Part shown: in pieces, positions 3,541-52,919 of the stretch
How the letters are laid out: every line of letters begins with the position of its first letter
Position numbering within the stretch: position 1 is the first letter of the stretch
Assembly: GCA_021234155.1 (NCBI GenBank)
Contig: JAJEKV010000033.1
Coordinates: 9,147,641 to 9,211,640 of the forward strand
DNA length: 64,000 bases
Direction of reading: 5' to 3'
Source: Isoetes taiwanensis
Taxonomy: Eukaryota; Streptophyta; Lycopodiopsida; Isoetales; Isoetaceae
The notes under the pieces: generated by a model
What the model saw: only the letters and a program-made list of their open reading frames with translations
What the model was told of the DNA's origin: nothing
The model's database searches: none
Made by a program: the position numbers and the translations under genes

Positions 3541-4557
3541 TGATTTGGTGTTTCATAAGCATGGATGCAAATTTATTAAAGATGGTGTGAAGTTATTTGA
3601 TGCTGATAGAAGAGGAAATTTGTTTGAGTTTGACATCAAAACAATCAATAAAATATCTCCCATAGATAAACTGCATACTTGGCATTTGAGGTTGGCGCAT
3701 ACAAATCATAATAATATTAAAATTGCAGAAAAGCACAATTTTTTGGATGACTTGATGTGTGAGCATGAAAGTAGGGAAGCAAAGTAGATTGCCTTTTAGA
3801 AATAAAGGCAAGAGAGCACACAAATTACTTGAGTTAGTTCATTCAGATGTTTGTGGTCCAATGCAAGTTCAAAGTCTAGGGTCAAAATTTTACTTTGCAT
3901 CATTTATTGATGACTATAGCAGAAGGACTAAGTGTTATTTTTTGAGGTCCAAAGACCAAGTGTTCGATGCTTTTAGGCTCTATGTTGCGGAGGTTGAAAG
4001 GGAAACATCGTTAAAGGTTAAATGCTTGAGATCCGATCTTGGAGGAGAATATAGATCGGGTGAATTTTGCAGGTTTTGTCAGGAGCATGGGATTAAAAGA
4101 CAGTATACATGTCGGTATACGCCACAACAAAATGGTGTAGCAGAACGAAAGAATCGCACCGTCATGAATGCAGCAAGGTCTATGCTTAAGCATGCGGGCC
4201 TACCCAACAGCTTATGGGCAGAAGCAATGGCGGCCGCTTGTCACATTCAAAACAGGTTGCCTAGTGTTGCAAGTTAAAAGAGGCAAGCATCGCAACAGGT
4301 TTGACCGGACAAAGACAACTGCAGGAAGCGCTTTTAGAGTGTACGGGTGTCTAGCCTATATGTTGGTTCCGGAAGAACTCAGGAGGAAGTTGGATGATAG
4401 AAGCATATGCACTTTTCTGGTTGGCTACGATGAAGAAACGAATGGTTACAGGTTATATGATCCAAACACTCGCAGCATACATATTAGCAGAGATGTGGTA
4501 TTTAACAAAAACATCCTATACAAAGATAGGAAGCTGCTTAGCAAGCCGGAGATGTGA
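3540..4557 (+). pseudogene. copia-1 GAG-pre-integrase and integrase
   Basis: The segment HTWHLRLAH is a GAG-pre-integrase domain with the HHCC zinc region. The integrase core follows in another frame, with HSDVCGPM (first Asp), LRSDLGGEY (second Asp) and PQQNGVAERKNR (Glu), the D-D-35-E triad. After a further frame change near 4270 come the conserved FRVYGCLAYM and FLVGYDEETNGYRLYDP segments. At least three frame breaks are present, so no functional integrase is made. Confidence 0.88.
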
Positions 4558-4889
4558 GTAATGGGTGCCGAGAATATTTGGAAAATGATTCAGGGGTAAA
4601 TAAAGAAGCAATGCACAATTTTAGGGAGACAATAAGTTTACCCATGGAAGATGAAATTGACCTTGAAGATGATGAAATTGAGGATACAAGTGAGCAAAAA
4701 GACACAGAACCAGATGTGGTGCATGAGGTCGCAGAAACTGATAGTGCACTGCATACTGAGCCAGAGGATGTGCATGAAGTCTTAGAGGCTGATAGTGCAC
4801 CGGAAACCGGACACCGTGAGGAGGAGGCCGGTGTGAAGCCAGAATTGAAGAAACCGGGGGAGTACAAGCGTGACTGGACTCGCAGTTGA
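4554..4889 (+). pseudogene. copia-1 acidic linker between integrase and reverse transcriptase
   Basis: An acidic, repetitive segment with internal repeats of the type VHEVxExDSAxxTE. This variable linker is normal in copia polyproteins at this position. No enzymatic motif is seen. Confidence 0.6.
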
Positions 4890-16251: not shown

Positions 16252-17369
16252 GCATGCAAACAAATTTTATTGGAAACACTAATGTGGATAGTCTCTTGGA
16301 ATTCTCCAATGGAAAGAGAAGGCTACAAACATACTGTGAAATGGTTGTTGGATGAAGGTGCATTTGTTAAATATAGAGATAAATTGGATAATACCCCTTG
16401 CATTGGGCTGCAAGAAACGGATCCATTGACATGCTAAAAATTCTTATAGAATGAGGCTCCCAGGTTTGTGCAACTAATAAGGATGGAGAATTTCCACTTG
16501 ATTTGGTCGATAAAGTATCTCTTAGATCTGCCATTCTATGCATTTCTAAAGCCTTGCATGCACAAGAAAACCATGATACTGCAGATCTGTTGGCAACCAA
16601 TGGTGACATTGTTACAATTCTTCATTATGTAGCTGCTTATGGGACAAGCGAAAATATTGATTGCGTAGCTGCTAAGCTTGCTTCCGACCAGATGTCAGTT
16701 CTAGTAAACATGAGAGATAGACTTGGCAGAAACCCAATGCATTGGGCGGCATAGAAGGATAATACTGAAGTTCTACAAACTCTTGAAAGATTTAAAGTGG
16801 ATATAAAAGCTGAAGATACTGATAAGTTGACACCATTGACTCTGGCTTTGCTTTGCAAACACATTCCATTTGCAAAAGAGCTCATAAACTTTTCAGGTAC
16901 GAGCTTGAGCTATGAGGAGTGGGTGCAAAATTGGGCAGCTAAAATAAAAGCAGTCTTGAAATCTAATGTTGGGGACATAGGCCTATTCGATTGCCTATGG
17001 AGGAGGGGCACAATCAGGAGGGATTTGCAGCGGACTTTAAGCTCACCGAGTCAGCGGCGTCGAATCATCAATCAAGGGCGAAGAATCGATGAATCCCTTC
17101 TAGATGGAATGCCCCTATTATGGCTAGCTTTTTTTATCGACTAACTTTTGCAGAGTTGTAATAGGGAGGGATGCAATGAATGAAAAAGAGGGGAAGACGG
17201 GAATGACTACTTTGCATTGGGCAGTATTATTAAATCAAAGAAAAGCTATACATATCTTGTGCACCAACAGAGAGTTCGAGAAGGAGATTATAGCAAATGC
17301 ACAAGATACATTTGGCAAAACTGCATTAGAATATGCAATGGAAATTGATAACGAAGATATCATAAAAAA
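16252..17369 (+). pseudogene. Ankyrin-repeat part of an ankyrin-PGG protein, split by element A
   Basis: After a likely acceptor (TTGGACAG|GCATGC) the frame reads WLLDEGAFVKYRDKLDNTP, then after a one-base loss LHWAARNGSIDMLKILIE, RNPMHWAA, LTPLTLALLCKH, and MTTLHWAVLLNQRKAIHILC. These are ankyrin repeats (consensus TPLHxAAxxG). In-frame stops occur after KILIE near 16454, at 16752-16754, and at 17142-17144, plus a frame change near 17150. The last host codons before the transposon read NEDIIK. The membrane PGG half resumes at 31309, beyond element A. Proteins of this class are plasma-membrane ankyrin proteins linked to stress and defence signalling in plants. Confidence 0.85.
17363..17369. 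other. Left target-site duplication of element A
   Basis: TAAAAAA (17363-17369) corresponds to TAAAAGA at 31309-31315, a 7-bp duplication with one difference. Removing the element and one copy restores the ankyrin-PGG reading frame from NEDII into KELLQIRNV. Confidence 0.8.
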
Positions 17370-17393
17370 AGCACGATTTAATTAATTAGAGAA
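17370..17393 (+). repeat. Element A left terminal inverted repeat
   Basis: 24 bp beginning AGCACGATTT, with two mismatches against the right end. A small palindrome GAGAATTTCGGAATTCTC overlaps its inner edge at 17389-17406. Confidence 0.85.
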
Positions 17394-17407
17394 TTTCGGA
17401 ATTCTCG

Positions 17408-18329
17408 TTTAGCATGAAATAGGTTCTTGGTTGTCTATAAAACACCGTAAATGGTTGCAGCAGAGTAAAAGTTGACGTTTTTCCCGCTGTTTTTTTGGTC
17501 ACAACCAGCGATGTATCCGACTTTGACATGTATAAGGCTATCCCAAGCTCCTTTGTGAGTAAGAGCGGTCCACAAGAAAGAGTGAAAATACTCAGCAGGA
17601 TCGCCACGGCGAAGATTTGAAGCTGCCTAGCTAGCCCATGGATGTAATATCACAAGTCCGTTAAGCTCTACACATGGATAAAAAGAAATGAAATTGATAA
17701 TGAGGATCGCGGCGGCGAACATTTTGAGCTGTTAAGGTACCCACATTCTGCCAATAATTCTAAGAAAGTGCTAGCAAATGTCGTGTCAAGGAAAGTTTAG
17801 ACAAGAAACAAAACTCAAATAGTAAGAAAACTCAAAGATATGGAAAACTTCAAAGCATTGTAATTTATATTCCTCAAACATTTCAATGTACATTACTTTG
17901 CCATGGGGCGAAATTAGTCCATCCGGGTTTCCGACATCGACTTCGTGGTACAACACCTATCTCGCCAGCCTATCCTAGCTACATGTTCCCCGCCCCTTTG
18001 TAGAAGATCCGCTGTGTTCCCGGCCCGGCAAGGACTTGGACATGTGGATCCGGGCCTCGGGTCTCAAGATCCATGGCATCGCCTTCGACAGATGCGCCAC
18101 TGCCAAAGACAAAGGCGCATCGGGTGCATGGAAGAGTTTGTTTTTTTTTCTTGGTCGGAACTCCCGATGCTCCCTGCGGTACCGATGGCTCACCCTCTTG
18201 ATCCGCAGGGTCCACGCCCATGCCTACGTATTCGAAACTCGACCTACCGTCAAGAAAGGCATGTAGGCATCATTTTTTTGTTTAAAGCCCCAATTTTTGA
18301 AACACGGGCTTTAGCTAATAATACCTTTC
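17408..18329. other. Element A left subterminal region
   Basis: No confident coding sequence. Two loose palindromic sites of the element's own type occur (GGATCGCCACGGCGAAGAT near 17598 and GGATCGCGGCGGCGAA near 17704). The GC-richer block at 17945-18260 has overlapping open frames on both strands, but none is recognised. Confidence 0.5.
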
Positions 18330-21176
18330 TCAAGAGCCTCGTAAGTCTTTTCGTTTCCCCGTGATTCTTTCCTCATAGCTTTTCTCATCCATTTGATCCA
18401 AGATTGTATCAATGTTAGATATATCTGTTCTCTGGGTAATGTTTAAATTGATCGCGTCAGGATCATTCACGTGCTCAGCTTTATCCTCTTCAACTGCCTC
18501 CCCAAATACCGTCCAACCAGCTTTTTCGAGCTTATCCAGAAAGCCCTCGAATCTAAGATACTTTACCTTGGCTTTCGAAGCAATACTTTTCTTTCCCCGC
18601 AGAAATATGGACACGAAGCAAGACTACTGCCGAGAAGAAATCAAGAACACAACCATCCTTGGGCACAAGCTTGTCAACTAGGTAGTAAGCATATGATGTC
18701 TTCAACTGACACTTCAGCACGTGGTCACCTTCCATTCCGACAAACTTGTACTTGGGTTTACCCGTGAAATAAGTCTGCCATTTTTTCTTCATTTTCTCAT
18801 CAGTATCTTCGTCACCACTTACAGGCATTGGTGGCAAGGGCGTGTTCTTTGGTGCAAGGTTTCACCGTGGTCAAACGAAGCTCCAGCTCCCAAGATTATC
18901 GCGTTGACCTCGAGTCGCTTCGTTAATGCACATATGGGTGATGTAATATCGATATTCCTTCACCCTTTTCTTGTTCACCCATCCTCGCTCGTCATATGTG
19001 CCTACAGAAATATGGGACCCGCCTTTGAATCTTTTTTGTCCGCAAGCAACCGCAAGTTCACGTGCATCGTATCGTAATCACAAGGTGATAAATGTTAGCG
19101 TTGTCATGCCGGATATTCTTGTGAAGAGTTCCATGTATTTTTTTGCACGTCCATAATGCAGAGAATCCTCTAATGTTCCGCGGAAAGCAGGAAATTCAGA
19201 AAGCAATTCTTCCTAAAAAGTGTATTCTTTCTGAAGCAGCGTGGAGGCGTATGACAAAATCTCTTTCCGCATGAAGCTCGGGCTTCTAATATCAATGGCT
19301 ACCGCTTGCAATCAAACCCGCCATGATATCCGCCTTTGCACCTTAATGTATGTCTTTCCTTCCAAAATCTCATCGAGAAGTCGGAGAAACCTCTCAGATT
19401 AGACATGCCTCAAGGTATCTTAACCGTGTTTTGTTGAAGAAGTCCTTCGAGGGCTTATCGGGGAAAATCTCCATGTTCATCACGCATTTTTTGTTGACCC
19501 ATCTGTTGGCCACTTCCATTAACTTTCTCGAACACCCGCTCCTCCATAAAAATAAATTGCTTTCGCCCTTTAGCTCCTTCACCTTCAATGTTGTGGTAGC
19601 TATCTCGTGGAAGTCCTATAAAACAAATGGTCAGGGAAATTGCGGCCGCGATGTCATTGAGCTAAGATAATAAAAATACCTTCCATGCTAAGGTGGTGGC
19701 AGTACCAATGGGACCTTGCGAAGGACATCCATACGCTTTATGTTGATGCCGCAGCTGTTGAAGCTTCTCTAACAATGGCTCTCTATATACAGTGTTAGCG
19801 ATGACTTCATTGCACTGAATGCTCAACTCAATATATTCTCTATCTGTCAAGTTTCCATTAAGCACTCTTGTTCTTCTCCTCGCGTACAATTGAGCTGCAC
19901 ATATACTGTGGTTACCAGATATTATCCAAAATTTCTTGCCTTTCAAGTCAGCCCTCGTATCTACGTGATCTTTTTCCCCGGAAATAATGTGCACTTGTAA
20001 GTTAGGAAGCCACAAACCGTAAATCATGAACAATAACAATCACTTGGTAATGGGGTCGAAGGGGACAACATCGGCCTACGGTGAGCACCTCCGTAGGATA
20101 CGCCTTGAAACTCTTCACGCAGAGTCCCAGACATGGTCGTTTGAACGCATTCGATGCGTGAGGTTAGCAGAGCTGGCTCGCAATCGCCGCGAATCAAATA
20201 TGGAGACCTTCATAAACCAGCCACACCAAGCCGGATAGAACCGCTTGAATTGTTCAAGCTTCGTAGTTTGTTCGCCAATTTATGCGTTCTTTCTCGTGGA
20301 TTGAATTTGAGCTCTACGGCAGTTCGAAAGCAAGGGGAAATGCTAAGCTCTTGGACGATGAAACACCCGAGACGGAAGGGTGGGTGTGGAAGAAGAAGGT
20401 TCTCTATCGCTATCGGTAAGTAGTGAGTTTCTGAGGTTGATTGTGAACCGATATCTTGTTTGGGACAATAGTATCTTTCAAGCATAATAGGGGAGCACAA
20501 ATAGCCAAAGGCGAGCGGGATCTATAATAGCAGAAGGTTGGCAAGTTGGAAAATGGCTCCACGCATGTGGCCGGGTCGGGTAGAGTCCTCTCGCTAAAGA
20601 TACGGGCTTCACATGCTTTTCTTCGCCCGAGCTCTTAACCGCTTAGTCCATTACTAAGGCATCTTCTCATCTCGCTTAGATTTCAATGCAATGCTGGGTG
20701 GTTTCTTATCTGCCTGCAAACCTTTTCTGCATGTCGAGAAGCCAGACAATATATCCCTATTGCCAGTTATTCCGGACAGAGACAGAGATTCATAGGACTG
20801 CAGGTTCTACCGTATCCTTTTCGACCGGTCGGAACATTCTTTCCTCGCGGGGCGGCTTGTTTAACTTGCTATTCGTCATGAGCTTAGGGATCATAGTTTG
20901 TCCATTTAAGGACGTACTCAATGAATCGCAAATTTTGTGTGTCCTCGCGACGCGCATATAATAGCCGCCTTGGACATTGTTTTTTGTTCCTTCCCACATA
21001 GCAATTACAATTCCTATCCGTTGTATGTCATCGGCTTTCTTGCCAGTCTTGAGGAACAAGCAGAGGTCTTTACGGCGGTCGCCTTTCGTCTGTGGAATTG
21101 CTTGTGCAATTTCAATGCACCACTTCCTTTCATTGGAAGGTGTGATGATCTTAGTAGGCTCAACATCCGACCGCTA
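18330..21176 (-). pseudogene. Element A ParB-like / N6-N4-type DNA methyltransferase gene, broken
   Basis: Read 5' to 3' on the minus strand, the first visible exon begins after TTTTAG near 21176: PTKIITPSNERKWCIEIAQA, then GKKADDIQRIGIVIAMWEGT and GGYYMRVART. Next, 20039-19662 carries a ParB/sulfiredoxin-like core (KFWIISGNHSICAAQLYARR, then LTDREYIELSIQCNEVIANT), with the GNHxxxAA signature. A middle region follows (KGESNLFLWRSGCSRKLMEV, then GTLEDSLHYGRAKKYMELF). The end (18837-18553) reads YYLVDKLVPKDGCVLDFFS, which resembles the SAM-binding motif I of class-beta N6/N4 methyltransferases, where it follows the catalytic motif. No DPPY box was found here, so this copy is divergent or damaged. 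Frame breaks occur throughout. Catalytic function is inferred from the better-preserved relative in element B. Confidence 0.6.
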
Positions 21177-21254
21177 AAACAAATTCGTGAGAGTCAAAAA
21201 GCAAGAGGTGTATCGGTATTCCCTAATGCACATATTCTTCCCAGAAGTCAACAA

Positions 21255-21479
21255 GATCGCTGTCGCGATCTTCATGAGAAGTTCGACGATGATCGCGACC
21301 GCGATCTTCTTGAGTGTCGCGACAAGATCGGGCCACAAGACGCCGTGAGTTTCATGAAGATCGCGACCGCGATGTCGCTTGAGCACTCAACAGATCGCAG
21401 TCTCGCGATGCTACCGAAAGCGCCGCCAGATCACGTCAGCGATCCGCCGGAAAGCACTCGCCAGATTGCGTCGCCGATC
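21255..21479. repeat. Element A iteron array: seven 33-36-bp units with 16-bp palindromes
   Basis: Units start at 21255, 21291, 21325, 21359, 21393, 21429 and 21464. The best unit core is GATCGCGACCGCGATC, a perfect 7-2-7 palindrome (21291-21306); others are GATCGCTGTCGCGATC and GATCACGTCAGCGATC. A second palindrome TGTCGCGACA occurs at 21315-21324. The array lies about 80 bp upstream of the first visible exon of the ParB-like/methyltransferase gene. It looks like a protein-binding array in a divergent promoter. An Arg/Asp-rich frame across it is only the translation of the repeat. Confidence 0.85.
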
Positions 21480-21489
21480 CCGCGTTGAG

Positions 21490-22917
21490 TTCCGCACTGC
21501 TGATGACTACATTACGGTAAAAGTGAACAACGTAATTAAACATGCATTATCGAAGAAATCAAGGCCGCGATCTTCTTTGAGCCGAGGGGCTAGAACTAAC
21601 ATTCTCTCGAGATGGGCTTTGGTGCCATGGATCGCGGGCGGAAGAATTCGAAAAAAGGGTTTTGACGACCGCCGAGAGAGAAAAGGCTGGAGAATCGCTG
21701 AAAAGGCGCCGTCGGGCCGGGCGAAAGAAATTCTAATCAGCGAAAAAAATATCGCTATCCAAGCCGGATTAACTTAATACGGCATGTGCGGGACCTTCCG
21801 CGTCATAAATGCCTGCCATTAATACGGCCGGCATTCATAATTACACATCATTAATGCAGCCGCCCTTATTTATGGAGACCCAACAACTTTTATTTTAAAT
21901 GTGGCATTTTCCTGACAAGAGATACTTTTTGACGTGGACCTCTAAATTCAAAATGTGTACGTAGAGTGAGAGATATAACCTTCCCCCCATACCAACACAT
22001 CGCGCAATAAAAGCCCCACGGAACCAAAATGTACACGCCTCTGGAGCGCGGTTGAAGGACTGAAAAAGACAACTGAATTTAAATTTTGAGCCTGAATTTC
22101 GCGTTCGATCTTGAAGGCGGGATTTCCGGCTTGTAATCGGCGGTGGTGTTCGAAGGCGCCATTCTTCTTGTCGGGCGCCGCTCGCTCCTCGAGGTGCTCG
22201 ACCGTTTCTTCGAGGCTCTAGGTCTCATCTTGAAGGTGCTCGCCTAACTTAAGCTACCGGGGTACAAAATCCTAATGCCTTATCGTTTTTATCCGCCTAG
22301 AAATTATCCAATTAGTAAGTGATTTTCGATTTGTTGTTTATGTATAGGTTATAATAGTGTTTTCACAACCATAATGTAATTTCCATCGTATTGGCACCAT
22401 CTCTTTCTTGGTATATGCCGCTCACCGGACCAGTATAATCGGGTAAGCGAGGCCCAAATCAATTGTTTATTTCTGACTAATTGATAGTGAGGGGATATCA
22501 CAAGAACATAATGGTTCCGCTAATGGTTCTCGCCTCCCAAAGTTGACAATTCACCTACGCATCTCCATTGTAATTAACAAAAGGCAAAGAATCGCTGTGG
22601 AAATAACAATTTTGCAATTAGTATTCACGTAAACATTTGATTTGGCGAGAGTTACTCAAATATCTATTTGTTGCTCGGGCTTGCACCAGTTCGGATCTCG
22701 CTTAAAAGAATCGCGCGATCGCTGCTCATCCGAGCATAGCACTTATAACGTGGACGCGAGCTTACATCAATTAATTAGTGACATTGCGATCTTGTCGAGG
22801 TAAATCCAAAGAGGGAAAGTGTTTTTAAATGGTCGAGAAAATAGTTTGAGTTGAAGAAGGTTAGTTAGATTAGAGAAAGATTCTAGGTAGATTTGAAGGA
22901 TTCAAGATGTCCACCGA
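21490..22917. other. Element A central region without recognised gene
   Basis: This would lie between the two divergent genes. Short frames only; no family recognised. The segment 22090-22250 has several GAAGGCG and TCTTGAAGG repeats of unknown meaning. Confidence 0.5.
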
Positions 22918-23103
22918 GAGGTCCAAAGGATCGCCAGCGCGATCTCCCGGCCCCTCCGTGGTGTCTTGTGCTTGTTTGATTCATACCTATGTGGTCCAGA
23001 GGACGCCTTCGCGATCTTCCCCGAGGTATTATGTCGTCCCCTTGGGGCCTTGAGTAATTTGCATTTTTCTACTAATGAGGTCCAAATGATCACCATCGCG
23101 ATG
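22918..23103. repeat. Element A second palindrome cluster
   Basis: Three copies of GAGGTCCAAAGGATCGCC followed by a GCGATC half site: 22918-22944 (core GATCGCCAGCGCGATC), 22991-23016 (GGACGCCTTCGCGATC) and 23077-23103 (GATCACCATCGCGATG). The spacing is about 75-85 bp. An isolated ATCGCGCGAT palindrome lies at 22710-22719. Confidence 0.8.
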
Positions 23104-23256
23104 TTGACGAAAGCGGTGTTGACTTTCTTTTAGGATGGAACCTCTACGCCTTTCACCTGTTTGGGGAAGAAGGTGGTCGAGGGCGAGTGCATAACTTCAA
23201 AAATCACCACAACGCCCCGGGTGCGCATTTAATTGATAGTAGTTTTCGCTTGTCGT

Positions 23257-23602
23257 TGTTGCATATATAGCCTTTACACATGTCATGTAGAAGCAAAGAT
23301 GAAGCAACAAATGGGGAAACCATGCATGCGGGCATGGCATGCGGAATAGTTGTACGCGGGCATGGCGTGATAGTATAAGAGGAGACCTACCCGAAGCCGA
23401 AGAGGGTGGAGAGAAGCAAGGAAGGTGCATCCGGGTGGAACAATCCAGTTGATTGGATTGAAGGTGAAGTGGCTGAATTGCGTGTGGCTTTAGGTGGAGT
23501 CTTGTTTATGCTTGAAGGGATAGAGCTTGGGCCTCTACCGGTACATACGCCAGTAAAGAGTGCTGCGTGGCAACAAGCCGTAGTACCGCTAAGAATCGAA
23601 CA
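23257..23602 (+). repeat. copia-2 5' LTR
   Basis: 346 bp, TGTTGC to AATCGAACA. Compared with the 3' LTR it differs by many one- and two-base indels, several of them CG dinucleotides. Confidence 0.9.
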
Positions 23603-23829
23603 GCTGGTATCGAGAAACACAAGAACACTTCCGGTCATCTTCACAGATTGTCCAAGACCCGGAGGATTGTTTTGTTACCCCGGTTTCAAGGAGGACATGG
23701 CAAGCATCTGAGTAGCTTGTTAATGTGTAAGGGAGACTAGGTGGATCCCGCTTATGGATGGGCGGAGATGGTTGAATTCAATAGAAAACTTGCAATTGAG
23801 AAAGAGAACACGGGAATGATTGGAGCAAT

Positions 23830-26330
23830 TGCAAAATGTGTGAGAGGAGAACTCATGTATTGACCATCGACTCGAGCGTAAGTTTGATGGTAAGCTCACC
23901 AAGATCTTTGCGTCATGTTAAAACCAATGAAAAGCATGTAGTCAAGATGGGAAATGGAGTTCTTCGTGGTGTACATGGGCACGGGAATCTAGAATTGACA
24001 AGGGAAGGTAAACTATTCTTAATGTGCCGAGCATTATATGTCCGGGTATGTTGTTCAATCGGGTTTCAGAAAGGGCATTTAGTAGATGATGGTTATGAAT
24101 TAAGATTTCATAAGACTGGGTGCAAGTTCATAAAAGATGGTGTGAAAACCTTTGAGGCACAAAGGAACGGAAAGTCGTTTGAATTGGATGCGAGGTTATC
24201 AATAAAGTTTCGTTATGGATGATGCATACATGGCATCTTAGAATGGGGCATGTCAATTATAACAAGATTAAAATTGCACGTAAAACATAAGTTGTTAGAT
24301 GGGTTGATATGTAATGATGAAGATCATGGCGTGTGTGAGGCATGTATGCTTGGAAAGCAAGCTAGACTTCCCTTTAAAAATAAAGGACTACGAAAGCAAC
24401 CGAAGTTGCTTGAATTAGTGCATTCGACGTGTGTGGACCTATGCAAACACAGAGCCTTGGGGAAAATCATATTTTGCCACTTTTATAGATGATTGTAGCA
24501 GACGCACCAAATGTTATTATCTTCGCACAAAAGATCAAGTATATGATGCTTTTCGGCTTTATGTCGCAGAGAGGTAGAGCGAGAAACATCCAAACGTGTA
24601 AAATCGTTGAGGTCGATCCTGGAGGAGAATACAGTCGAAAGTGAATTCACAAAGTTCTCACATGTGCGTGGTATTAGAAGACAAGATACATGTCGATATA
24701 CACCCCGCCAGAACCGGGTAGCGTGAACGCAAGAACCCCGCACCATAATGGATGCGGCTAGATGCATGTTGAAACATGCGGGATTGCCTAACTTTTATGG
24801 GGAGAAGCAAGAGTCGCTGACTTGCTATGTGCGTAATGTGCCGCGGGTTGCCACCGCATTGAAGGGAGCGCCTCGAGGAGAAGTGGTCCGGAAGAAGGCA
24901 ACCGGCCGATCGATTGAGGGTCTACGGATGTTTAGCGTGCATATGCTCGCGCCGCAGGAGCCTGCGGAGGAAGTTAGATGATCGGGTATCCCCACTTTTC
25001 TAGTAGGGTATGATGAGGAGGCAAACGGCTATAGGCTATATGAACCTCGCGGACCCATAAAGTTTATGTTAGGTGGATGTTGAATTTGATGAAAGAATAC
25101 TTTATAAGGATAGGAAATCTTGACAAAGGCAGAAGCGTGGAATGGATACCAATAGACTAAGACGCATCTAGAGAAGGATGCGCAGAAGATCAAGGAGACA
25201 AAAGAGCGGAACCGGATGTAGTAATAAGTGATGACTCGGATGATGAGCGGATGGGGTGCATGAGACCATAGAGGTCAACAAGGCACCACATACACCGGAG
25301 GCGAGCACAAGGAGGTGCATGAGGCTCTTGGAGCTGATAGTGTGCCGATGTGCAAGAAGAAGTGCATGAAGGAAGGCAAGAAGACATTGAAAGTAGAACA
25401 ACCACACGCCGCGTAGAGGTGGAACAGCTTAAGGCGTAACTTCCTTTGATGCGATGCTTATGGCAGACAAAGCGAAGTTCCAAAACCCAAGATAATATCT
25501 TGTGTGGTGGAGCCCAAGACAGTAGAACAAGCTGTGATGGGAGCTGATTCCCTCAAATGGAAGGAGGCTATGGAGAGTGAGTTGAAATCATTTGAAGAAA
25601 CTGGAACATATGAATTGGTGTCACGTCCGAGGAGCAAAAATGTGGTTGGCAGTAAGTGGCTCTTTAAAATAAAGAGAAATGCTGATGGATCAGTAGAAAG
25701 GTATAAAGCTCGGCTAGTAGCAAAAGGATACACTCAGGAAGAAGGAGTAGACTATACAGATACTTTTTCACCCATAGTCAAGGTGACTAGTCTAAGGACC
25801 CTGATAGCATTGGCGCCCGTAATGATATGGAGATAGAGCATATGGACGTGAAGACGGCTTTCTTAAATGGAGAACTAGAAGAAGAGATCTATATGGAGCA
25901 GCCTGAAGGATATGAGCAGAGTGAAGAAAATGGTTTAACAGGTTATGCCGATGCAGACTGGGGAGGAGATCCGGATGACAGTGAAGTCAACTTCGTGTTA
26001 TGTGTGCAAATTAGGTATCTTTGCTATATCTTGGGGTGTAAGAAGCGTGAATGTGTAGCCAAATCTAAGCGCGGAAGCAGAATATCATGTAGAGCAGCAT
26101 CACAGCGTCCTCAAAATAATTTGGTTACGTGAGAATGCTCAAGGAGTTGGGATGTTTGTTGCCGAGTGCTACCAAGCTATACTTGTGATAACAAGAGCGG
26201 AGTGGCAATGACTAAAAATCCAGTTCATCATTCGTACCAAACACATTGAAATACACCATCACTTCATACCGGGATGAAAAAAAGGGAGATCGATGTGACT
26301 TATATCCCCACAAAATTGCAAAGAAAGGAG
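23830..26330 (+). pseudogene. copia-2 polyprotein remnants (protease to RNase H)
   Basis: Pieces in several frames: protease TIDSSVSLMVS and MGNGVLRGVHGHGNLELTRE, GAG-pre-integrase HGVCEACMLGKQARLPFKNK, integrase pieces near 24500-24830, and RT at 25504-25836 ([47 protein letters not shown]). The RT then jumps at about 25925 straight into the RNase H segment TGYADADWGGDPDDS, so the palm with the YVDD box is deleted. Confidence 0.85.
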
Positions 26331-26418
26331 GACATGCTCACTAAGGCTCTATCCGAACCTAAGTTGATAGATGCTAAAACCCAGTTGGAGTTGTGGAGTG
26401 TAAAGGCTAAGGGGAGTA

Positions 26419-26760
26419 TGTTGCATATATAGCCTTTACACATGTCATGTAGAAGCGCAAAGATGAAGCAACAAATGGGAAACCATGCATGCGGGCATGG
26501 CATGGAATAGTTGCATCGCGGGCATGGCGAGATAGTATAAGAGGAGACTACCGGAAGCGGAAGAGGGTGGAGAGAAGCAAGGAAGCGGTGCATCTCGGGT
26601 GGAACAATCCAAGTGATTGGATTGAAGGTGAAGTGGTGAATTGCAGGTGGCTTTAGGTGGAGTCTTGTTTATGCTTGAAGGGATAGAGCTTGGGCTCTCT
26701 ACCGCATATCTGCCGAAGAGTCTTGGTGGCAACAAGCCGAAACCGCTAAGAATCGAAACA
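26419..26760 (+). repeat. copia-2 3' LTR
   Basis: 342 bp, TGTTGC to AATCGAAACA, followed by GTCGT, the right target duplication. Confidence 0.9.
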
Positions 26761-27199
26761 GTCGTTGTCTTTGATGGGCGGATACCACCGCCGTTTTCCG
26801 CAAACTGAATTGAACCAGCTAGGGAAGCTATCGGTAGCTTCGTTCTTTGGTCCAAAAGCGGCGTTCAAAATGAAATCACGCCAGACCCGATGTTAGCACA
26901 CCACCGGGTCGGATCAAACGGATAAATTGGCAAGTCCCAAAGAAATGCTTGTGAAGAAAAACAAGAAACCAATTGAATTGCGGGGATTTGCGGGGATAAA
27001 CTAGTGGAAAAGACATGTGAGTTCTTGCGACGAAAGTGCCGCGAACCGCCTTTATGCTGTGTGTCATCGCCTTCAGATCCAAACGATGCCGTGTCCGACA
27101 TGAAGTTGGGTGAAACATGGATAGGGGTTTGTTATGAATTTGTTGCCCATGCCCAAAAAAATTTCTATGCTGTCACAAGCTTGTGCGTAAAATGCCACA

Positions 27200-29774
27200 G
27201 TGCATGATTTGGGAGATGGCCAATAGCATTGGTTCTCGTGAGACGATTCCAATTTCAAGTCTAGTTATGGCCGCGGAAGGAGACCAGAGGTCGAGAAGGA
27301 AGCTTATGCCATCAGGCGGAGGCTGGAGTAACAAAAAGACAAAGGCCACATGGTGAAGAGGAAGGCGAGGAGGACGCCGACCCCAAACAAAGGTGAAAGG
27401 AAAACCACGCCCGAAGCTCTCTTGCGATTCAGTCCTCGATGTGCCGCTTGAAGAGATGTTGTGCTAATTTCACGCTTAAAGAGGTATCCGCCATGAGGAC
27501 CTTTTGCTGGAACATGAAAAGCTCGAACGTGACGACTTTTTGGCGCACAACATGCTAGTAGATCTTTGTTCGTGAGAATGGAAGTGTGAAAAAGCTAATG
27601 CCGAACAACAAGCAAGTCCGGTGGTGAAGGCATGGCATAGTGCTTACGGTGATACCGTTTCTACATTTTACAAATGGAGGAAGCTTTTTTGAACGGGGCA
27701 GGATTGCGGAGCACTTAAACTCCGGGTCCATGAAGCCAAGATCTCATACATCGGCCGGGAGTCGTGCTATCTATGTACATAGATGAAAATGCTGAAACTA
27801 TGCCCACACCGCCAAAAGGTTACGAAAGTGGGGGGGCACTAGAGAAAGTGTGAAGAGATTACCTTCCATCTTGACTAAAAAAGGACATACATCAAGAGGT
27901 AGATATAACCGTTCACGAGATGACAGGAAAACATGTTTCTCCGTCGTCCTTCTTGTCAACGTGGAAGGAGAACCACTATGAGGTAGCAATCGCCAAAATG
28001 ATAGCATTTTCTAAGTGTAATACCTGTATTGTGATAAAGGAGAAGCTTGCCAAGACTAGAGATCCAAGAGAAAGAAGAGAGCTTGCCGTGGAAAGGAAAT
28101 CTCACATGACAGCCCAACTTTCCTGCAGGAGTCTCTACTAGTCATGGAAAGCTTTGTCTCATCGATCTCCTGAACATGCCTTAAACATTATACATGATAA
28201 AATGGATCAGAATAAGACGATGGTTCCTCGTCTGGAGAAGCTAGCAAAATCTGTATGGAGGGGTGAAGCGGTTGAAGGTGAGTCTTCTTCGGGTGCTCTC
28301 ATGCATGGGCATGGTGTAGGTGCCTTGGGCCACTTCCATTTGGACCTCGGCCCGATGATTCAATTTTCATGTGGGATCTTTAAATCATACCTTGAAAACA
28401 CTAGAGAATCAATCGAGGACAACCGGGTCATTTGAGAAATACAGATTTTCCAGGAAGCTGCTGGGGTGGAGCAATTTTGAACACGGAAGCCCTTAGGACA
28501 AAAATGGTGAATGACACTAGAAATGATTTTATGCCTCCTATCAAGGGCCCTCACGACACAGAAGAAGTTGCGTAGGAGGCTTTTTACTTGTAGCTAGACA
28601 ATTGCTCGGGACAAAATAAGAACGTATCTTTTCTCTTACTTGTCATACTTGGTGCGGTTAGGTGTCTTCGATCAGGTGCATTTGGGATTCATGATGGTTG
28701 GACACACCCGCGATGACATAGATGCCCTCTTTGGAAACTACTCTACTCTATTGAGAAGATCAGATGCATTGACTATTCCGACTTATGCAACTCTTCAGGC
28801 AAGGTGTAGTTCAAAGTCTCCTACACCCTACCTTGTGTCTGCGAGGTTCCCAACCTGGAAAGAATTAAGTGAAAGGTTTTATCCACGATAAGAAGGATCA
28901 ATTTATGTGGTCATTTGGAACCTCTACTCTTCAAGTTTTGCATGAAGGATGGATGGCCACTAATGTTCTACAAGATGAGGCCAGGGCATAGGGAGTGGCT
29001 ACCTGAAAAGGGAATCAAAATGTGGAAGGAGGATGCCCAAGGCTTACCTATGATTCCTAGAGGGTCACCTAAGGTCGTGCAGACCATATGAGAGCTTGAC
29101 GATATAGGTGCCTTGAGAGCTTCAATTGCCAAGTACATGATGCCTTTGGGCAGCTATTTCTAGAGCCAGTGATAACTCATGGTCTAAAATATATGAATGA
29201 AGTTATTGACTACTGGTCCACCTTGTTGCGAGTGCTTAGGGACGTTCAGCCTGGTAGAACTGTCATTCAGGATTTCTGGCCCAGCACGAGACAAATTGCA
29301 TTAGAAGAACCCGACAACTTATTGGTGGATGAACACATCGGTGCATCTCATTATGTCGGACCTTTCTCTAGTAGACCCAAGAACCTGTTTGAAATATCGA
29401 CCCCTACCAAGATGTCAAGAAAGGAATGCTCTTCTAGCGTCGGGCCACATGATAAGCGGCGTGGATGGCCTTTGCGAAGAAGGACCCAAGAGAGGACCCT
29501 AATCTCCCTCACTATGAAGAGGTGTTTGTCTCTTGGTTTGAGTCTGTTGCGCGGAAAAGGGTACCTCATATGCAATGCAAGTATAGGGATTCTTTGGAGC
29601 AAGAATTGGAGACCGAATCCTAATGACCCGGCCACGCTACCAACATTTGAAAACAATAGACTATGGTTGGGCCGTGAGAGACCAGGCCATTGTCGTGGTG
29701 ATCCCGATAATGTGGGGGCTCGGTTGCAAGAATTAGTGGCTAAAAAGCTAACGCACGAAGATGAGAACTCTTGA
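27200..29774 (+). pseudogene. Element A transposase candidate (VGHTRDDID family), broken
   Basis: Coding pieces in order: LLLEHEKLERDDFLAHNML (27490-27560, a likely Zn-binding N-terminal region), SPSSFLSTWKENHYEVAIAK and FSKCNTCIVIKEKLAKTRDP (27940-28080), IIHDKMDQNKTMVPRL (28185), GALGHFHLDLGPMIQFSCGI (28320), LDNCSGQNKN (28595), RLGVFDQVHLGFMMVGHTRD followed by DIDALFG (28650-28730), then MFYKMRPGHREWLPEKGIKM (28960). A C-terminal part is open from 29169 to 29774. The order D-G/K-MDQxKT, LDNxxxxNKN, VGHTxxxID is the signature of a family of repeat-encoded plant and animal proteins that I believe is Pfam DUF7869. The transposase role is inferred from its place in a TIR element. Stops and frame changes occur near 28140, 28435, 28570, 28890, 29070 and 29160. 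Confidence 0.7.
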
Positions 29775-30151
29775 GGTATGCAATGCTCTTTTACATAATT
29801 ACTATATCATACATGACATGCAACTTACAATAGACTAGTTATTATTCATTCGCTCTGCGTTTTCATCTCAACACAAGAGCTCTTACACTATACAATGCCA
29901 AGCGGGTGATTCATTCATCTTCGGGGATCTGTAGTAGTGATCCACGATATCTCATAGCTCATGCGCTCGGGAAGCCAAATCAGATGGATCATAACACTTT
30001 AATTGGCGAGGGCAATGAATCTCGGCGCCAAAAGCTTTTCTTCCAGCGGTAGGGATCAAGAAGAAGATGCCTGTCTAGGCAACCAACAAGATCAGAGTGG
30101 CTCATTGAGCACTTGATCGCCTCAATGTGGTGAACTGAAGAAGGCGAAAAA

Positions 30152-31190
30152 TCCATGGGAGATGAATGAAATTTAGCCCCGAAGGGTGAAAGCATGTTAG
30201 GGCCTACATAAAAAATTACCAAAAAGGTACTTTTCTGTGTACTTCTGTGCAAGTACATAATTGTATTTTAAAGTACCTAGACTACAAGATTGACTAAAAG
30301 AAATTGTGTTATGTTCAAGAGTAGTAGTACATACATGTTGTAAGGTACTTTGTGATGTCAAGAAGATGTTAAGAACTCAAATATATCATCATCTTTGACT
30401 ACCCAGAGTATTTTCCAGGTAGTTTCCAAAACATGTAGGCCCTAACATGCTCTTACCCCGAAGTGAGAAGCTTTTATAGTGAAGTGGAATGATTGAGGTG
30501 AATTATTGGGGTAGACTTTACCACTATTATTGAGCGTGTATCAGACTGTTGTATACGTACAAGAATAATACATATTTCATACTAATATGCGTATGTTTGA
30601 AAACATGTTTGCTTGACGAATTTAGCTATGATTGAATTCAATGACAGCTTGCAGAAAAAGTGGAGGTGGGATAGCACATCGTTACAATATACTCAGTTAA
30701 GGTACATGATATTACATCCTTAATCAGAATGCTATTACATCCTTACTTAGTTATTAGGTACCCATGTCATTATTACATTATTAGAAGGGTGCGTATTCAC
30801 TCATCATCAACACCAAAGCTCGTGATGCTATTCAGCTCATAGATCTCCGATCGGGGAAGCGGTAAATGTGCACCACAACACGAGTGAGCTTCACGCAAGC
30901 ACTAAGCGGAGGTCCATCAACTTTTAGATAGGAGCCATGGATCAAGATTAGCGCCATTTCTAAGCGTATTCGCCCGATCGTTGTAGCTCAAGTGATGTGC
31001 TGCGGGCCGAGGCATCGAGGGAAGCCATGGAAGATGAATGACCTCCGCCTCGAAGTCAAGCCCGCTTTTATAGTGAAGTAAAATTATTGATGTGAATTAT
31101 TGGTGTACAATGTAGGGCCATTATTGAGCTTCTACGAGTGTCATGTACACGTACAAGTATAACACATAATTTGTATGTATATGTGTATGT
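30152..31190. repeat. Element A right subterminal direct repeat
   Basis: Two related copies, 30152-30590 (interrupted by the MITE) and 31025-31190, share CCATGGRAGATGAATGA, CTTTTATAGTGAAGT, GTGAATTATTGGKGTA, ATTATTGAGC and GTACAAG-ATAA. A small minus-strand gene duplicated here is possible, but no family is recognised. Confidence 0.6.
30191..30451. mobile_element. 261-bp MITE nested in element A
   Basis: Perfect 19-bp terminal inverted repeats AGCATGTTAGGGCCTACAT (30191-30209) and its complement (30433-30451). The interior has no coding sequence. The flanks repeat CCCCGAAG on both sides (ending 30184 on the left, from 30456 on the right), but an exact target duplication is not clear. Confidence 0.85.
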
Positions 31191-31284
31191 TAATTACCTC
31201 ATGTTTCTTGTGCTCGAGAAGTAGGTGAAAGTATTCGTGCTAGAGCAAATTAGGTGTGTTTAAAATTCTCAAAATTGGCTTATT

Positions 31285-31308
31285 TTCTCCAATTAATGAA
31301 ATCGTGCT
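31285..31308 (-). repeat. Element A right terminal inverted repeat
   Basis: 24 bp ending AAATCGTGCT on the plus strand, the complement of the left terminus with two mismatches. It is followed by TAAAAGA. Confidence 0.85.
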
Positions 31309-31893
31309 TAAAAGAATTGCTGCAGATAAGAAATGTGAAATCTTGGTTGGATCGATTATATCAGGATCGTCAGATATATGTAGATGGGGCAAATGCAATC
31401 TTGGTAGGTGCTGCATTAATTGTGAGTGTCACATTTGCTGGGTTTATACAACCACCGTTAAACAATACAGATCAGACTTATCCTAGACACGTAGCACTAC
31501 GTGTGTTTTGGGCCTTCAATAGCCTTTCATTTTCTTTGCAATTGCAACAGTGCTTGTGGGAGCTGGCACTAACAGACCAATGTCAGAAAGTTATATCCTA
31601 AAGTTGTTTCCATCATGAGGCTCAGCTTGTTCTGTGCATCTATTTTATTTGTAATCTCTATTATATGTGTTATAGGGGCATTTGCAACAGCTAGCTTTAC
31701 AGTCTTGCGTTCTCTACTCAGATATCGACTTAATTTGATAGTGACAGTACTGATCGGTGGAATACCTTATCTCATTTTTCTCGGTTGGTTCTTCTTCAGA
31801 CTATGCATGGGAAGGCCTAGATGGTTTATAGGAATTCAGGAGTTACTATTTACGTTTAATCGGGACTCTCAACATTTTTCCAATATCCTTTAA
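31309..31893 (+). pseudogene. PGG membrane half of the split ankyrin-PGG gene
   Basis: The frame resumes with KELLQIRNVKSWLDRLYQDR, then YVDGANAILVGAALIVSVTF and FIQPPLNNTDQTYP, the PGG domain, whose first membrane helix is visible. A one-base frame change near 31530 leads into FNSLSFFFAIATVLVGAGTN and two further strongly hydrophobic segments (LFCASILFVISIICVIGAFA and LIVTVLIGGIPYLIFLGWFF) before the stop at 31891-31893. This is the normal C-terminal end of plant ankyrin-PGG membrane proteins. It joins in frame to the 16252-17369 segment when element A is removed, which shows the two halves are one gene. Confidence 0.85.
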
Positions 31894-48497: not shown

Positions 48498-51400
48498 TCA
48501 AAGATCTACATCATAGTCCTCCTCATTCTTTTTCTGCTCTCTCGCCATCTCGTCCTTACGTTTCTATCTGCTCCTTTCTTTGGAGACTTGAGTTTTGTAT
48601 CCTCCTTGTTCTCGGAATGGTAGCTAAAGCTACTTCTTTAAGCTCTGCAAAGGTTGCCTCATCGTCTAGTAATTTTGGAGAATGGGTACGTATCTCTCGA
48701 GGGCGTTAGTTTAGCATAATCGGATGAAGACTTGGCCCCTAACTCTGATTTTCATCGGTAAAAGTAGGTAAAGGCGGCGGTCTCATCTTCACAAAATGCT
48801 GACCTCCTTATCAATATCCACGGCTACGGTTTGCGGCCCTTCTTAAGTGCACATGCGATAGTAGTACGAGAACGGAGAAAGCATCAAGTACCCAATCTCA
48901 CGGGCCGAGAACATGTCGAGGAGATGGTTGATGAGCTTTTTGTGGTTTACGGTAGTGATTCACAATCTGCCTTGTGCACTTGGGTCCTGCAATTTACGTA
49001 AAGGCTGCTGGAAACTCTAGGGCGTTTGAAAAGTTTTGGCCGGTGGCGGTGTTAAAGTGATCCATGGTCCTCTTCCCATCAAAACTCCAATAAGCTACAT
49101 GAAGGTACTCTACCTTCTTTGAGCAACCTTGGTCCTCCACCATGGTAGTTGATGTTAGTTTTGTACCTAGTGAAGCATTTAAAGTGATATTAGCAAAAAC
49201 AAAGAAAACACTTGAAAACCCGAAGCGAGGAAATACTATTAGGAATACACACTACGTAATTAAAAAGAAAAGTAATTGTATACGGAATAAGACTTCTGGA
49301 ACAAGGTTTTCATATCACACTGGCCCGGAGAACCAAAGTGATTTTTGAAAGCCCCTGATTCCACCAAGCCCCGGTGCATGCTTTCGAATGGAGCGTAACT
49401 AAGCGCCAATGTTTGGCCGTTGAGATCTGCTTAATTCCTTCAATAAAAGCATTAAACTCACGAAAATTTGAAGGGGGCTGGTCGTCGTATCTGCTGTCTT
49501 TAAGCTTAAACCCATAGGGAAGATCAGCAATAACCAAAGTAAAGTCCTGTGGCTTAACCGTTCCGACAAGGTTCGTGCAATCACCATGAATGATTGAATA
49601 TAAATTGTTTTGATCAAACATGCGAGAATCTCTCGTAGTCGGATGGTTACGGCTCTTGTTCTTCTTTCGACTAACGACCTCTCTTCGTCTTTGTTCTAAC
49701 CAAATTCATAAAGCCCTCGGGTAGGTCTTTATTTTTCTTTTTGCTCTAAAGAAAAACAAAACAACAACTGTCAAGAGATCGTTTGTGCAGAGAGAAGGAA
49801 TTCTAAGTGTAATTACCTGACCCTCAAAATTTGGTGAATATTGGACAATCATTTCGTCGGATGTGGCAATTGGGTAGAGTTCCTTGCACCTTTCCCATGT
49901 GTCGGCGTTTAGGCTGCTCCATCAAACATGTTTGACATGTTATGGCGTTTTTTGGCTGCAAGGCGTTAAAGGAAACAATGAGTTTAAGCGAAAGAATGAA
50001 GGCAGCGTAAAAAGAAAAACAAATACAAGTCAAGCTAATTGTGATACGGAATACAAACCCGGTTAACTTGTGATGCTACCTCGAAACAATATGCGAGAAA
50101 ATAGTTCTACTACGGGACAAACACATTGCTTCTCTAAAGGAGGCATGCGTATTCGAGAATACGGGCCAACATTGAGGAGGAGCAATGTGTATTCCGAATA
50201 CACATGCCTTCCTTCACCGCGGGCAATGTGTATTAGGAATACCAATGCCTTTCTAGAGACAAGCAATGTGTATTCAGGAATACACATTGCCGTAAAGAAA
50301 GGCATGTGTATTCGGAATACACTAACCACGCCGATGTTTTTGGGAATCTAACATGCAATAACTAATGTTTGTGTCGGAGAACTTACTTGTGTAATTCCTT
50401 TGACATTTCTTCTAGGCTAAACTCCTTATCAACAACTTTTTGGGGCTGCTCGAGAAGCTCAGGTGTCGGAGAAACCCTGCATTTCCTTGGGCCGGTAATG
50501 GTCATTTCTTTTTAGATGCGTCGAGCTTTTTTTTTTCTTATTTGTCTCCTTTCCCTTGCTCTTTAACTCCCCTAATTTCGAACATTGTAAATATCTCGGT
50601 CACGGGTTCCCAAATCTGTTCAAGAAGATTCACGTTAAATAGTTGATTTGCTATTACGGAATACATTTTGTGCTTACCTTGCCATCTCTAAAAGCTAAGC
50701 TGGAACCGGTTGTCGTGGCCAATGAGAGGCGCCTTTTGTTGGCCTCGTCATATTTCGAGGCGGCATTCAATGGCACCACGCCTCCTTAAGCTCAAGGAAA
50801 ATCTTTGGCTTCTTGAGGTCCTCACCGTACTTTTCCTTGAATATTACGTACTCCACATTGCATGAACCGGATCTTGTCGGTGAAGCTCATCTTTAGTTTA
50901 TATTAGATTTGTCGGCATTGTGGGTGTTGGCAGCGATTTTCGCTTCTTCATCGGTAAGACCACGATGTGGCCTTGAGGAAGGGGCGGAGAGGTACCTCGG
51001 GTTCTTCTTCTCTTTATAAAGTTGCCTTCTTGCCTTAAAGGCGTGATTGCCTCCCAAGGCGTAGTGAGTGTAGGTCTGCGTTTTTCTGTCATAGTCTGGG
51101 GGTTTTGCACTCTTCCCTGTCAACAAGGACAACTATTGGGGCCACATGAGCATTTGGATTGCTCCTTATTACGTCTTTCGGGTTCCTTAAGTGATCGGCA
51201 TAATTTTTTGCGAACACTGAAGTGGCCTTTCACCGACTTCATTTTTTATTGGAAGCTTCATTGAAGTGGCCCGGCAAATAAATTACACCTTGCACAAACT
51301 TGTGCGGGTTAATCTCTTCCATCTTTTAAATTTGTCTTGTCAACTTTTTTTTCCTTTATAGCAACACCGGTGCTTTACCCTTCCCCTTCTTCTTCTTAGG

Positions 51401-51990
51401 TTCCTCGGAAATATCCTCTGCTTTGCAATTAAGGCCGTCGCTTTTTTTAGGCTCTTTAGCGACAATTGTGTAATCCTGGCGCTTCTTTGGTGGTGGTGGC
51501 GGTGGCCTTTCGCGGTTGTGATGGACTCAGTTGTGATGAGGCTGCTTTCGGGCTCGGTTGCTCATCCTCTTCCCTCGGTGACCGGACTCATTTGTAGGGG
51601 AAGTCTTAAGCTCGTTATTGCCGAACATAGTTGATGATGGCGCGGCGACCTCTTCTTGATGTAGTGAGCAACATACTTATCTACGGAGGGCGAGGATTTA
51701 CTTTCACCACTCTAAAATAGGATTCATCAACATGAATAAAGCCTTGGGATGTGCGAAAAAGGCGGTCTCCCTCATTTGGCGGACTCCCGGCTACTTCACT
51801 CCGCAATTTGGATGGTGCCCATGCAAACAAATTCCCTCTCATCATTACCTTTTTGCTCCGGCACTCAAAGCGGACATGTAGGAAAGTAAGTGTCTTTGTA
51901 CTTTCGAAGTACCCCTTGTAAAAAAAACCATTGAGTTTGAAAGTTTTCGTAGATGGCGGTATGAGATGTCTCCTCAACCCCTTCTCGTGG
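48498..51990 (-). pseudogene. Element B ParB-like / N6-N4-type DNA methyltransferase gene, broken
   Basis: Minus strand, in order: an N-terminal region TKTFKLNGFFYKGYFESTKT (51977-51681); a Lys/Pro-rich linker (51660-51320); NPHKFVQGVIYLPGHFNEA; HLRNPKDVIRSNPNAHVAPI and VVLVDREECK; after a frame change, YTHYALGGNHAFKARRQLYK and RGLTDEEAKIAANTHNADKS, a ParB/sulfiredoxin-like core with GGNHxxxARR; YVIFKEKYGEDLKKPKIFLE. Then 49621-49310 has IIHGDCTNLVGTVKPQDFTL and VIADLPYGFKLKDSRYDD, the catalytic DPPY-type motif. After an intron come KKVEYLHVAYWSFDGKR and, frame-shifted, VLDAFSGSGTTIACALKKGR with VAVDIDK (48890-48800), the SAM-binding motif. Catalytic motif before SAM motif is the class-beta N6/N4 (N6_N4_Mtase) order. 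It ends EDYDVDL and TGA at 48498. Substrate base is unknown. Confidence 0.75.
50147..50322. repeat. Element B palindrome cluster 2, five sites at about 40-bp spacing
   Basis: Sites at 50147, 50187 (GTGTATTCCGAATACAC), 50228, 50268 and 50306 (GTGTATTCGGAATACAC). The site at 50268 extends to a 28-bp palindrome with outer arms GCAATGTGTATTC and GAATACACATTGC. The cluster lies between coding pieces of the methyltransferase gene, probably in an intron. Isolated half sites occur near 49228, 50051 and 50655. Confidence 0.88.
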
Positions 51991-52274
51991 GGTGCGGTTT
52001 TCGTTGGGATTTTAACGGTCCTCTTGTGTTGTTTCTTGCTGCCTTCTTATGCATTGCAAATTGTGTGTAAAACACGATCTTGTTAGAAAGCGGTGGCAAA
52101 AACTATTCGAATACAAAATGTCTTGCGAAAAGGAAAAACAAAAGGGCAAAAAGAGGACCAAAATGCCAAAACAACAACGCAATCTTGACAAAAACAGGTC
52201 TAAACAAGTTTTAAAAGCGGAAAAAACACCTAAAGTCACTACGGAAAAACAAACTTACAAAACAAAAGAACAAT

Positions 52275-52554: not shown

Positions 52555-52919
52555 CGGACACACAAATGATTGTACCTTGTACTTTCTTACTCACCTCTCC
52601 ATGTTTTCTCTATGAGTATCGAATCTGACTCACGAATATTATATTCAGAAAGTATTTGGCGACTTCATTTCGAGAGGCTGGAATCACATGGCGGAAGGCG
52701 CCAAAATTTCCTTTTAAAGGTGTCCATTCCGTCTTGCTTTCGTTTTTCTATGTGAAGTGGAATCGTTTGGCCTTCTTTGTTACGCTCTAGTGTATTCGGG
52801 GAATAGCTTTTAGTTTGCCTTTAAACTTAATTGTTGCGGGAAGTTCTACTTTTAGTAGGCGGGCTTGTGATACGGAATAAGAAAAGCTCTGCGATGAGAA
52901 ACATTATCTAAACTCTGCT

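Follow-up and report, generated by a model that had tools for sequence, protein, structure and literature searches.

A high-copy DNA transposon of Isoetes taiwanensis and two sister families carry family-specific palindromic iterons beside a putative ParB-like/methyltransferase gene

In this work, we analyzed a 64,000-nucleotide stretch of Isoetes taiwanensis DNA (assembly GCA_021234155.1, contig JAJEKV010000033.1, positions 9,147,641 to 9,211,640; hereafter, the window) that holds a 13,941-bp transposon copy at window positions 17369-31309, to which no strand was assigned. This element represents, in decayed form, an abundant, high-copy transposon family, here called family A (subfamily A1), with an accessory gene on the minus strand and, on the plus strand, a DUF7869 gene that is most likely the transposase and not a passenger. 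Its comparison with two sister families, B and C, showed that each of the three has its own palindromic iteron, located both in the non-coding intergenic DNA and within an accessory-gene intron. The reading that we favor, with moderate confidence, is that these are Sola-type cut-and-paste transposons whose ParB-like accessory protein would bind the iterons of its own element and, in families B and C, would also methylate DNA. The gene pair as such is already known from a Sola-1 transposon of Ectocarpus (PMC12477816, in the part of that paper available to us); apparently new are the family-specific iterons and a lineage whose catalytic motifs have been lost.

Ends, target-site duplication and copies of family A

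The boundaries of the window element (17369-31309, AAGCACG...CGTGCTT) were obtained from an end alignment of the window copy with 11 genomic A1 copies, which were chosen for perfect pairs of terminal inverted repeats (TIRs) and include two short derivatives; the TIR pair, the 4-bp flank repeat and uninterrupted paralogues of the host gene support the same limits. Both TIRs are 25 bp long (left, 17369-17393, plus strand; its inverted partner on the right, 31285-31309, minus strand) and are 92% complementary, and the differences between the left and right ends are the same in other family-A copies among the matches listed. The inverted repeats reported in an initial annotation of this DNA are therefore real, each extending one base further out than the 24 bp proposed there. 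An exact 4-bp target-site duplication (TSD) was present in 12/12 A1 copies (the 11 selected ones plus the window copy, with AAAA at 17365-17368 and 31310-31313) and in 2/2 copies of subfamily A2, and a 4-bp TSD can be read as AATA in a deletion derivative, L025. As the 4-bp reading is exact in every copy checked, the 7-bp duplication assumed initially is ruled out.

The TIR pattern, allowing up to 3 mismatches, matched 1007+1047 times genome-wide versus 10+10 times for the reversed control, so the pair is not a chance occurrence; A2 ends, with a difference at one or two positions of the pattern, are included in this count. Among 100 exact ends listed, 35 neighboring "+ then -" pairs lie within 30 kb of each other, each composed of one left and one right variant, with a spacing of 9.5-11 kb in 27/35. 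Once a nested Copia retrotransposon (see below) and its duplication are subtracted, the window element measures 10,432 bp, like its genomic siblings. Ten full-length A copies, the window copy included, are 83.4-94.4% identical over 45 pairwise comparisons, which indicates that family A is not young. The transposon had been described as complete; this holds for its ends, whereas both genes are broken and a decayed Copia element is nested inside.

Two further features of family A deserve mention. The stretch of ~1.3 kb that leads up to the right end (window ~29,800-31,280) is kept in full-length A copies, and no open frame of at least 150 aa is listed there. On contig C996 (11128045-11142805), six A2-type ends in one orientation form three pairs ~0.73 kb apart with a 7-kb period, possibly through tandem amplification of element ends.

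Gene pair and methyltransferase motifs

The two genes are divergent, as the head-to-head arrangement proposed initially would have it. The putative transposase gene (23079-29771, plus strand; located by tblastn with open frames from C919a, C919b and C79) is broken and interrupted by the Copia insertion. The piece of it with the VGHTRDDID motif (28598-28888, plus strand) matches DUF7869 (Pfam PF25273, 2.1e-17), bearing out the earlier guess for this VGHTxxxID gene, and a better-kept A copy matches at 5.2e-38. The acidic motifs D.MDQ.KT, LQLDN and GHTHD.ID are conserved among the putative transposases of families A, B and C, as compared with one another. One family-B copy has a 987-aa open transposase frame, and the A and B proteins share 56% identity across 62 aa in the LDN...GHTHD region. 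A PDB profile search with the transposase gave nothing useful, and the term DUF7869 was not found in the open-licence literature searched.

Profile searches of the genome, limited to 150 scored matches out of 1444 candidates for Pfam N6_N4_Mtase and 150 out of 9910 for DUF7869, gave 24 pairs within 15 kb between the two lists, 22 of them divergent, versus a mean of 0.4 and a maximum of 3 in the shifted-position control. The four pairs retrieved all belong to family B, which has TIRs of its own (AACAAGATTGC...) and a 4-bp TSD, read by eye, in 3/3 copies with both ends at hand. Its methyltransferase matches N6_N4_Mtase (~2e-17) in the C-terminal half only, with no match on the N-terminal exon, and the C-terminal exon matches CcrM (6pbd, 2.6e-9), MboIIA (1g60, 2e-8) and RsrI (1eg2, 1.4e-6) in the PDB. 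Family B reads ADLPY (DLPY) and FSGSGTT; family C (L045 and L046), with the same layout as B, reads ADIPY (DIPY) and FSGSGTT, the second motif being damaged in one of the two copies. Judged from these sequences, B and C keep motif IV and motif I of beta-class N6/N4 DNA methyltransferases, and self-marking by methylation would be possible in both. Viral contigs scanned with the B methyltransferase and transposase held no relatives. Other family-A copies likewise have both genes inside one TIR pair, and the initial annotation's own condition for refutation, that the two genes never co-occur in this way, does not apply.

The accessory gene of the window element (18033-21209, minus strand; located by tblastn with C919a open frames) comprises several exons and is broken by frameshifts. 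It contains regions matching a degenerate S-adenosylmethionine (SAM)-binding motif I (LDFFS..., 18559-18705, minus strand) and a degenerate motif IV (19034-19177, minus strand). The DPPY-type motif IV reads NIRG in the window copy, IDFRG or IDIRG in other A1 copies, IDMR in A2 and IDIRG in L025. In place of FSGSGTT, A1 copies mostly have FFSAGTAS or FFSPVIAS, or decayed forms, and A2 copies have FFFRGQTS or FSAGQPS. The canonical DPPY-type or FSGSGTT motif was found in none of the examined A copies covering the sites. With both catalytic motifs lost, we reject methylation by the window family's own enzyme, and the active self-methylation suggested for this element at the outset is not supported.

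Similarity searches with the A gene returned little. Accessory-gene pieces of three A copies matched no Pfam family and nothing above the NCBIfam cut-off, giving weak NCBIfam and PHROG matches; an open piece with a ParB-like GNHS segment (19665-20039, minus strand) likewise had no Pfam match, and AlphaFold2, run on two ParB-like pieces of the window copy, gave a mean predicted local distance difference test (pLDDT) score of 39 and no usable fold. Profile comparison between A and B gave E values of 0.0054 for a ParB-like segment trimmed to the GNHS region and 0.036 for the methyltransferase part. MAFFT misaligned the whole A and B ParB-like pieces, and trimmed segments were compared for this reason, the trimming having been chosen after the GNHS likeness was noticed; the GNHS-segment score of 19.3 exceeded all 100 column shuffles (at most 15.7). 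Because these profile scores are weak, the case for homology draws on gene position, order and motifs together; on this combined basis the A gene is probably related, if distantly and in decayed form, to the ParB-like/N6-N4 methyltransferase gene that families B and C carry. Between A1 copies and L025, which is of A2 type at this gene, the accessory protein shows pN (nonsynonymous) values of 0.08-0.17 with saturated synonymous sites (pS 0.75-0.99), indicating that purifying selection acted on it even though neither A1 nor L025 has the canonical motifs. L025 itself (contig C1042, 2398-7750) is a 5.35-kb deletion derivative with A2-type ends.

The "ParB-like" label is provisional and weakly supported. 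DUF6551, which we take to be a ParB-like domain, scored below threshold in 5/5 B/C members (best 0.0023), and, of the two B members scanned with PHROG, one matched the ParB-like phrog_723 at 0.018. A tblastn search of phages with the B ParB-like part gave no match, and four phage methylases examined held no ParB domain at E 0.01. Of the ParB-like/methyltransferase identity first given to the window gene, the methyltransferase half holds for the sister families, the window gene being a decayed relative and the ParB half finding weak support in the sequence.

Palindromic iterons and neighboring features

The iterons of families A, B and C are ATCGCGRYCGCGAT, GTATTCCGGAATAC and GTATAAATTTATAC, respectively. 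At up to 3 mismatches, the window element has 10 sites: a cluster upstream of the accessory gene (21256-21571; sites 21256, 21292, 21360, 21430 and 21558), another upstream of the transposase gene (22930-23102; sites 22930 and 23089), one site between accessory-gene exons (19639-19652) and two weaker, iteron-like sites by the left end (17600-17719; 17600 and 17706), which occupy the same element positions in several copies. Under the same threshold ten A copies have 4-19 sites each, versus averages of 0.8-1.0 and a maximum of 5 in block shuffles, a control run on 3/10 copies. The commonest spacing is 34 bp (18 gaps over 9 copies), and most A sites flank the intergenic stretch (element positions ~4.1-4.6 and 5.5-5.95 kb). 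Several copies also have single sites near position 337 and, within an intron, near 2.5 kb. Family B has 12-15 sites in four two-gene loci, often 41-42 bp apart; in L036, 12/15 fall in the interval from the 5' end of the ParB-like frame (5296) to the presumed start methionine of the transposase (6184). Family C has 10 sites in each of 2 loci, between the genes and beside the ParB-like exon.

Each palindrome is largely confined to its own family. At up to 2 mismatches, the own-family palindrome occurs 3-13 times in A (12 loci), 4-15 times in B (5 loci) and 10 times in C (2 loci), and another family's palindrome 0-1 times per locus, giving a diagonal cross-table. Across the genome, with at most 1 mismatch allowed, the A iteron is found at 2581 places versus 25 for the reversed control and the B iteron at 5786 versus 0. 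An exact B iteron lies within ~2.1 kb of 5/6 listed methyltransferase or DUF7869 matches located on the 19 contigs for which B iterons are listed, the exception being on C29. The palindromes were defined on the loci in which they are counted, the independent evidence being the off-diagonal cells, the A2 copies, the B copy in the window and the genome-wide counts; the A copies share common ancestry, and the two C loci represent one family. In an unbiased palindrome search covering five loci each of A and B and two of C, both window copies and the A copy C113 had 4 sites each, not above the best control stretch, which had 4 sites of an AT-rich word; one control stretch from the window holds one B-type site.

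Two observations on family A touch on the iterons. A2 copies carry, beside the A iteron, a second palindrome, GCATGTTAAGATGC, around element positions 5.3 and 5.7 kb, with 5 and 4 sites (L047-L048 on C218 and L049 on C712). A 606-bp mini-element (L021; C952:12216870-12217473) has perfect A1 TIRs, the TSD TAAA and no GATCGC/GCGATC sites. It was considered as proof that iterons are dispensable and dropped, as the sole match over its positions 1-604 is the mini-element itself (40 scored of 2088 candidates), which makes it uninformative on mobility.

A decayed family-B copy lies in the same window (48532-56534, no strand assigned), with the methyltransferase and ParB-like gene at 48532-51998 (minus strand) head-to-head with the transposase at 52976-55872 (plus strand). 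Its right TIR ends at 56534, its left end was looked for and not found, and it has B iterons of its own (e.g., at 50149, 50270 and 52450). Another side observation in this family is a PPR gene beside one copy, which, like the PGG-type gene at the family-A element, would fit a land-plant host.

The family-A element sits in a host gene, with ankyrin-type coding on its left (16755-17368, plus strand; Pfam Ank_2, 1.1e-6) and PGG-type coding on its right (31314-31598, plus strand; 2.2e-4, below the Pfam cut-off), and the joined flanks are matched by three uninterrupted host-gene paralogues. The frame had been said to rejoin exactly upon removal of the element; it does rejoin with the 4-bp TSD except for one extra A in the A run of the left flank, which 3/3 uninterrupted paralogues do not have and which made another duplication length seem to restore the host frame. 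The nested, decayed Copia element (23257-26760, plus strand), inserted in the transposase gene, has long terminal repeats (LTRs) ~90% identical, an RVT_2 remnant at 25450-25833 and the 5-bp duplication GTCGT (23252-23256 and 26761-26765). Rfam at gathering scores gave 0 matches.

Proposed function, alternatives and known systems

The anatomy of these elements points to a transposon in which the DUF7869 transposase, whose three acidic motifs fit a DDD enzyme, would act on the 25-bp TIRs and leave 4-bp duplications. The divergent accessory gene would encode a ParB-like and methyltransferase-like protein, to which we infer the iterons to be cognate, each protein recognizing the palindromes of its own family. 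Once bound, the protein may act as a repressor or modulator of both genes and may mark or organize the DNA of the element. The methyltransferase fused to it in families B and C would go on to methylate nearby DNA at adenine-N6 or cytosine-N4. In family A the methylation step is predicted to be lost and the protein, which selection nevertheless maintained, would be a DNA-binding one; with the catalytic motifs gone, binding is the only role that would remain.

Several observations weigh against this model. ParB_N had 0 matches anywhere in the genome, and no ParB structure came up in the PDB with profiles built from the ParB-like part of B or of B+C. The link between the A and B accessory genes relies on gene position and on the two weak profile scores given above (0.0054 trimmed, 0.036). 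The transposase segment of L025 is much closer to A1 (pS 0.18) than is its accessory gene, a mosaic that suggests exchange between subfamilies. In the B copy L033, 8/14 sites (3974-4661) lie in the intron that separates the methyltransferase and ParB-like exons, a location with which a pure promoter-operator role fits less well, and this location of many B sites slightly lowers our confidence in the model. Finally, it could instead be the transposase or a host factor that binds the iterons. The strongest rival, which we nevertheless consider unlikely, develops this last point: the iterons would be operator or enhancer sites of the transposase, with the ParB/methyltransferase gene as a passenger. 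In Ac/Ds and En/Spm, subterminal motifs do act as transposase sites; the transposase also differs by family (56% identity between A and B near the active site), so that the iterons could follow it, and several A copies have their weaker sites close to the left end, at distances of 231 and 337 bp. However, most iterons are internal, between the genes or in the accessory-gene intron and away from the ends, their regular spacing as palindromes suits a dimeric operator or partition-type protein, and the gene pair is retained in all three families examined.

Two other alternatives concern the A gene. That it is unrelated to methyltransferases and merely occupies the same position seems to us quite improbable: the profile-profile scores are weak and the Pfam, NCBIfam and PHROG searches are as meager as described above, but the gene shares its position and orientation with the B/C gene, its GNHS-type segment outscored every shuffle, and its motif I- and IV-like segments come in the same order with the LD.FS core retained. 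Even less credible is an A-family methyltransferase still active with altered motifs. Five copies (L002, L004, L009, L011 and L023) have LDFFSAGTAS, and in most of these IAFES comes next, a sequence that keeps the F..GT core and the acidic residue after strand 2; the protein was also under purifying selection. Still, the proline and the aromatic residue of DPPY are missing in all examined A copies covering the site.

The superfamily assignment is provisional: Sola is the most likely one, a narrowing based on the 4-bp TSDs and on the Sola-1 transposon already described, where this pair of genes likewise occupies opposite strands. An element of another superfamily that leaves 4-bp duplications is improbable, on a par with the transposase-site explanation. 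Chapaev and Ginger also leave 4-bp duplications, which are thus not unique to Sola, and the likeness to Sola is one of description and not of reference sequence. Against such an origin, Sola-1 is the sole transposon found in the literature searched with this gene pair on opposite strands, and the duplications of the A copies are not TTAA-specific, TTAA being the duplication given for Kolobok in the available text of PMC9587614. Plant Sola transposons, as far as the accessible part of PMC10741241 describes them, have been reported in moss and resemble the present elements in their TIRs (11-1124 bp, a range that includes the 25 bp of the window family), 4-bp duplications and size range, and in their DDD transposase if the acidic motifs of DUF7869 mark such an enzyme; they differ in that an accessory methyltransferase is unmentioned there.

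Among known elements, Sola1-1_Ec32 of Ectocarpus is a 21.5-kb Sola-1 transposon with a ParB-like and N4-methylcytosine/N6-methyladenine (N4mC/N6mA) methyltransferase gene on the strand opposite the transposase, and its authors propose that the protein binds and marks the element itself (PMC12477816, text available in part). The same gene pair on opposite strands is what both systems have in common, compared by description and not by sequence. Sola1-1_Ec32 differs in its brown algal host and its length; iterons are unmentioned and the word "palindromic" is absent in the available text, and the window family is without catalytic motifs. Refs 50 and 51 of that paper (a 2011 work and Petroll et al. 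2025) concern, according to the citing sentence, the same kind of protein in transposons of other host lineages. The beta-class enzymes CcrM, MboIIA and RsrI resemble the C-terminal exon of family B, whereas they are bacterial and family A lacks their motifs. LTR retrotransposons with captured cytosine methyltransferases also carry a DNA methyltransferase, but of the C5 type and in retrotransposons (PMC5890265, as seen in part of its text). No description of iterons in eukaryotic transposons was found in the open-licence literature, judged by titles and abstract starts.

Bacterial ParB-parS partition systems have clustered palindromic sites by a parB-type gene. Family-specific palindrome clusters near a ParB-like gene recall this arrangement, with the difference that the ParB homology here is below threshold, and we know of no partition role in a transposon. 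It is tempting to speculate, and we regard it as doubtful, that the accessory protein and the family iteron co-evolve as a private, parS-like address: the protein would load on elements of its own family, spread and mark them (by methylation in B and C, by binding in A), and so control transposition or host silencing.

Altogether, our results suggest that the ParB-methyltransferase transposons known from algae have very abundant relatives in a land plant. The idea that such elements bind and mark their own sequence gains a concrete DNA target, in the form of three families with three different palindromic iterons. The motifs kept in B and C and lost in A also offer a natural contrast for asking whether the transposon needs methylation or mere binding. 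A private code, if true, would explain how numerous related families coexist without cross-regulation.

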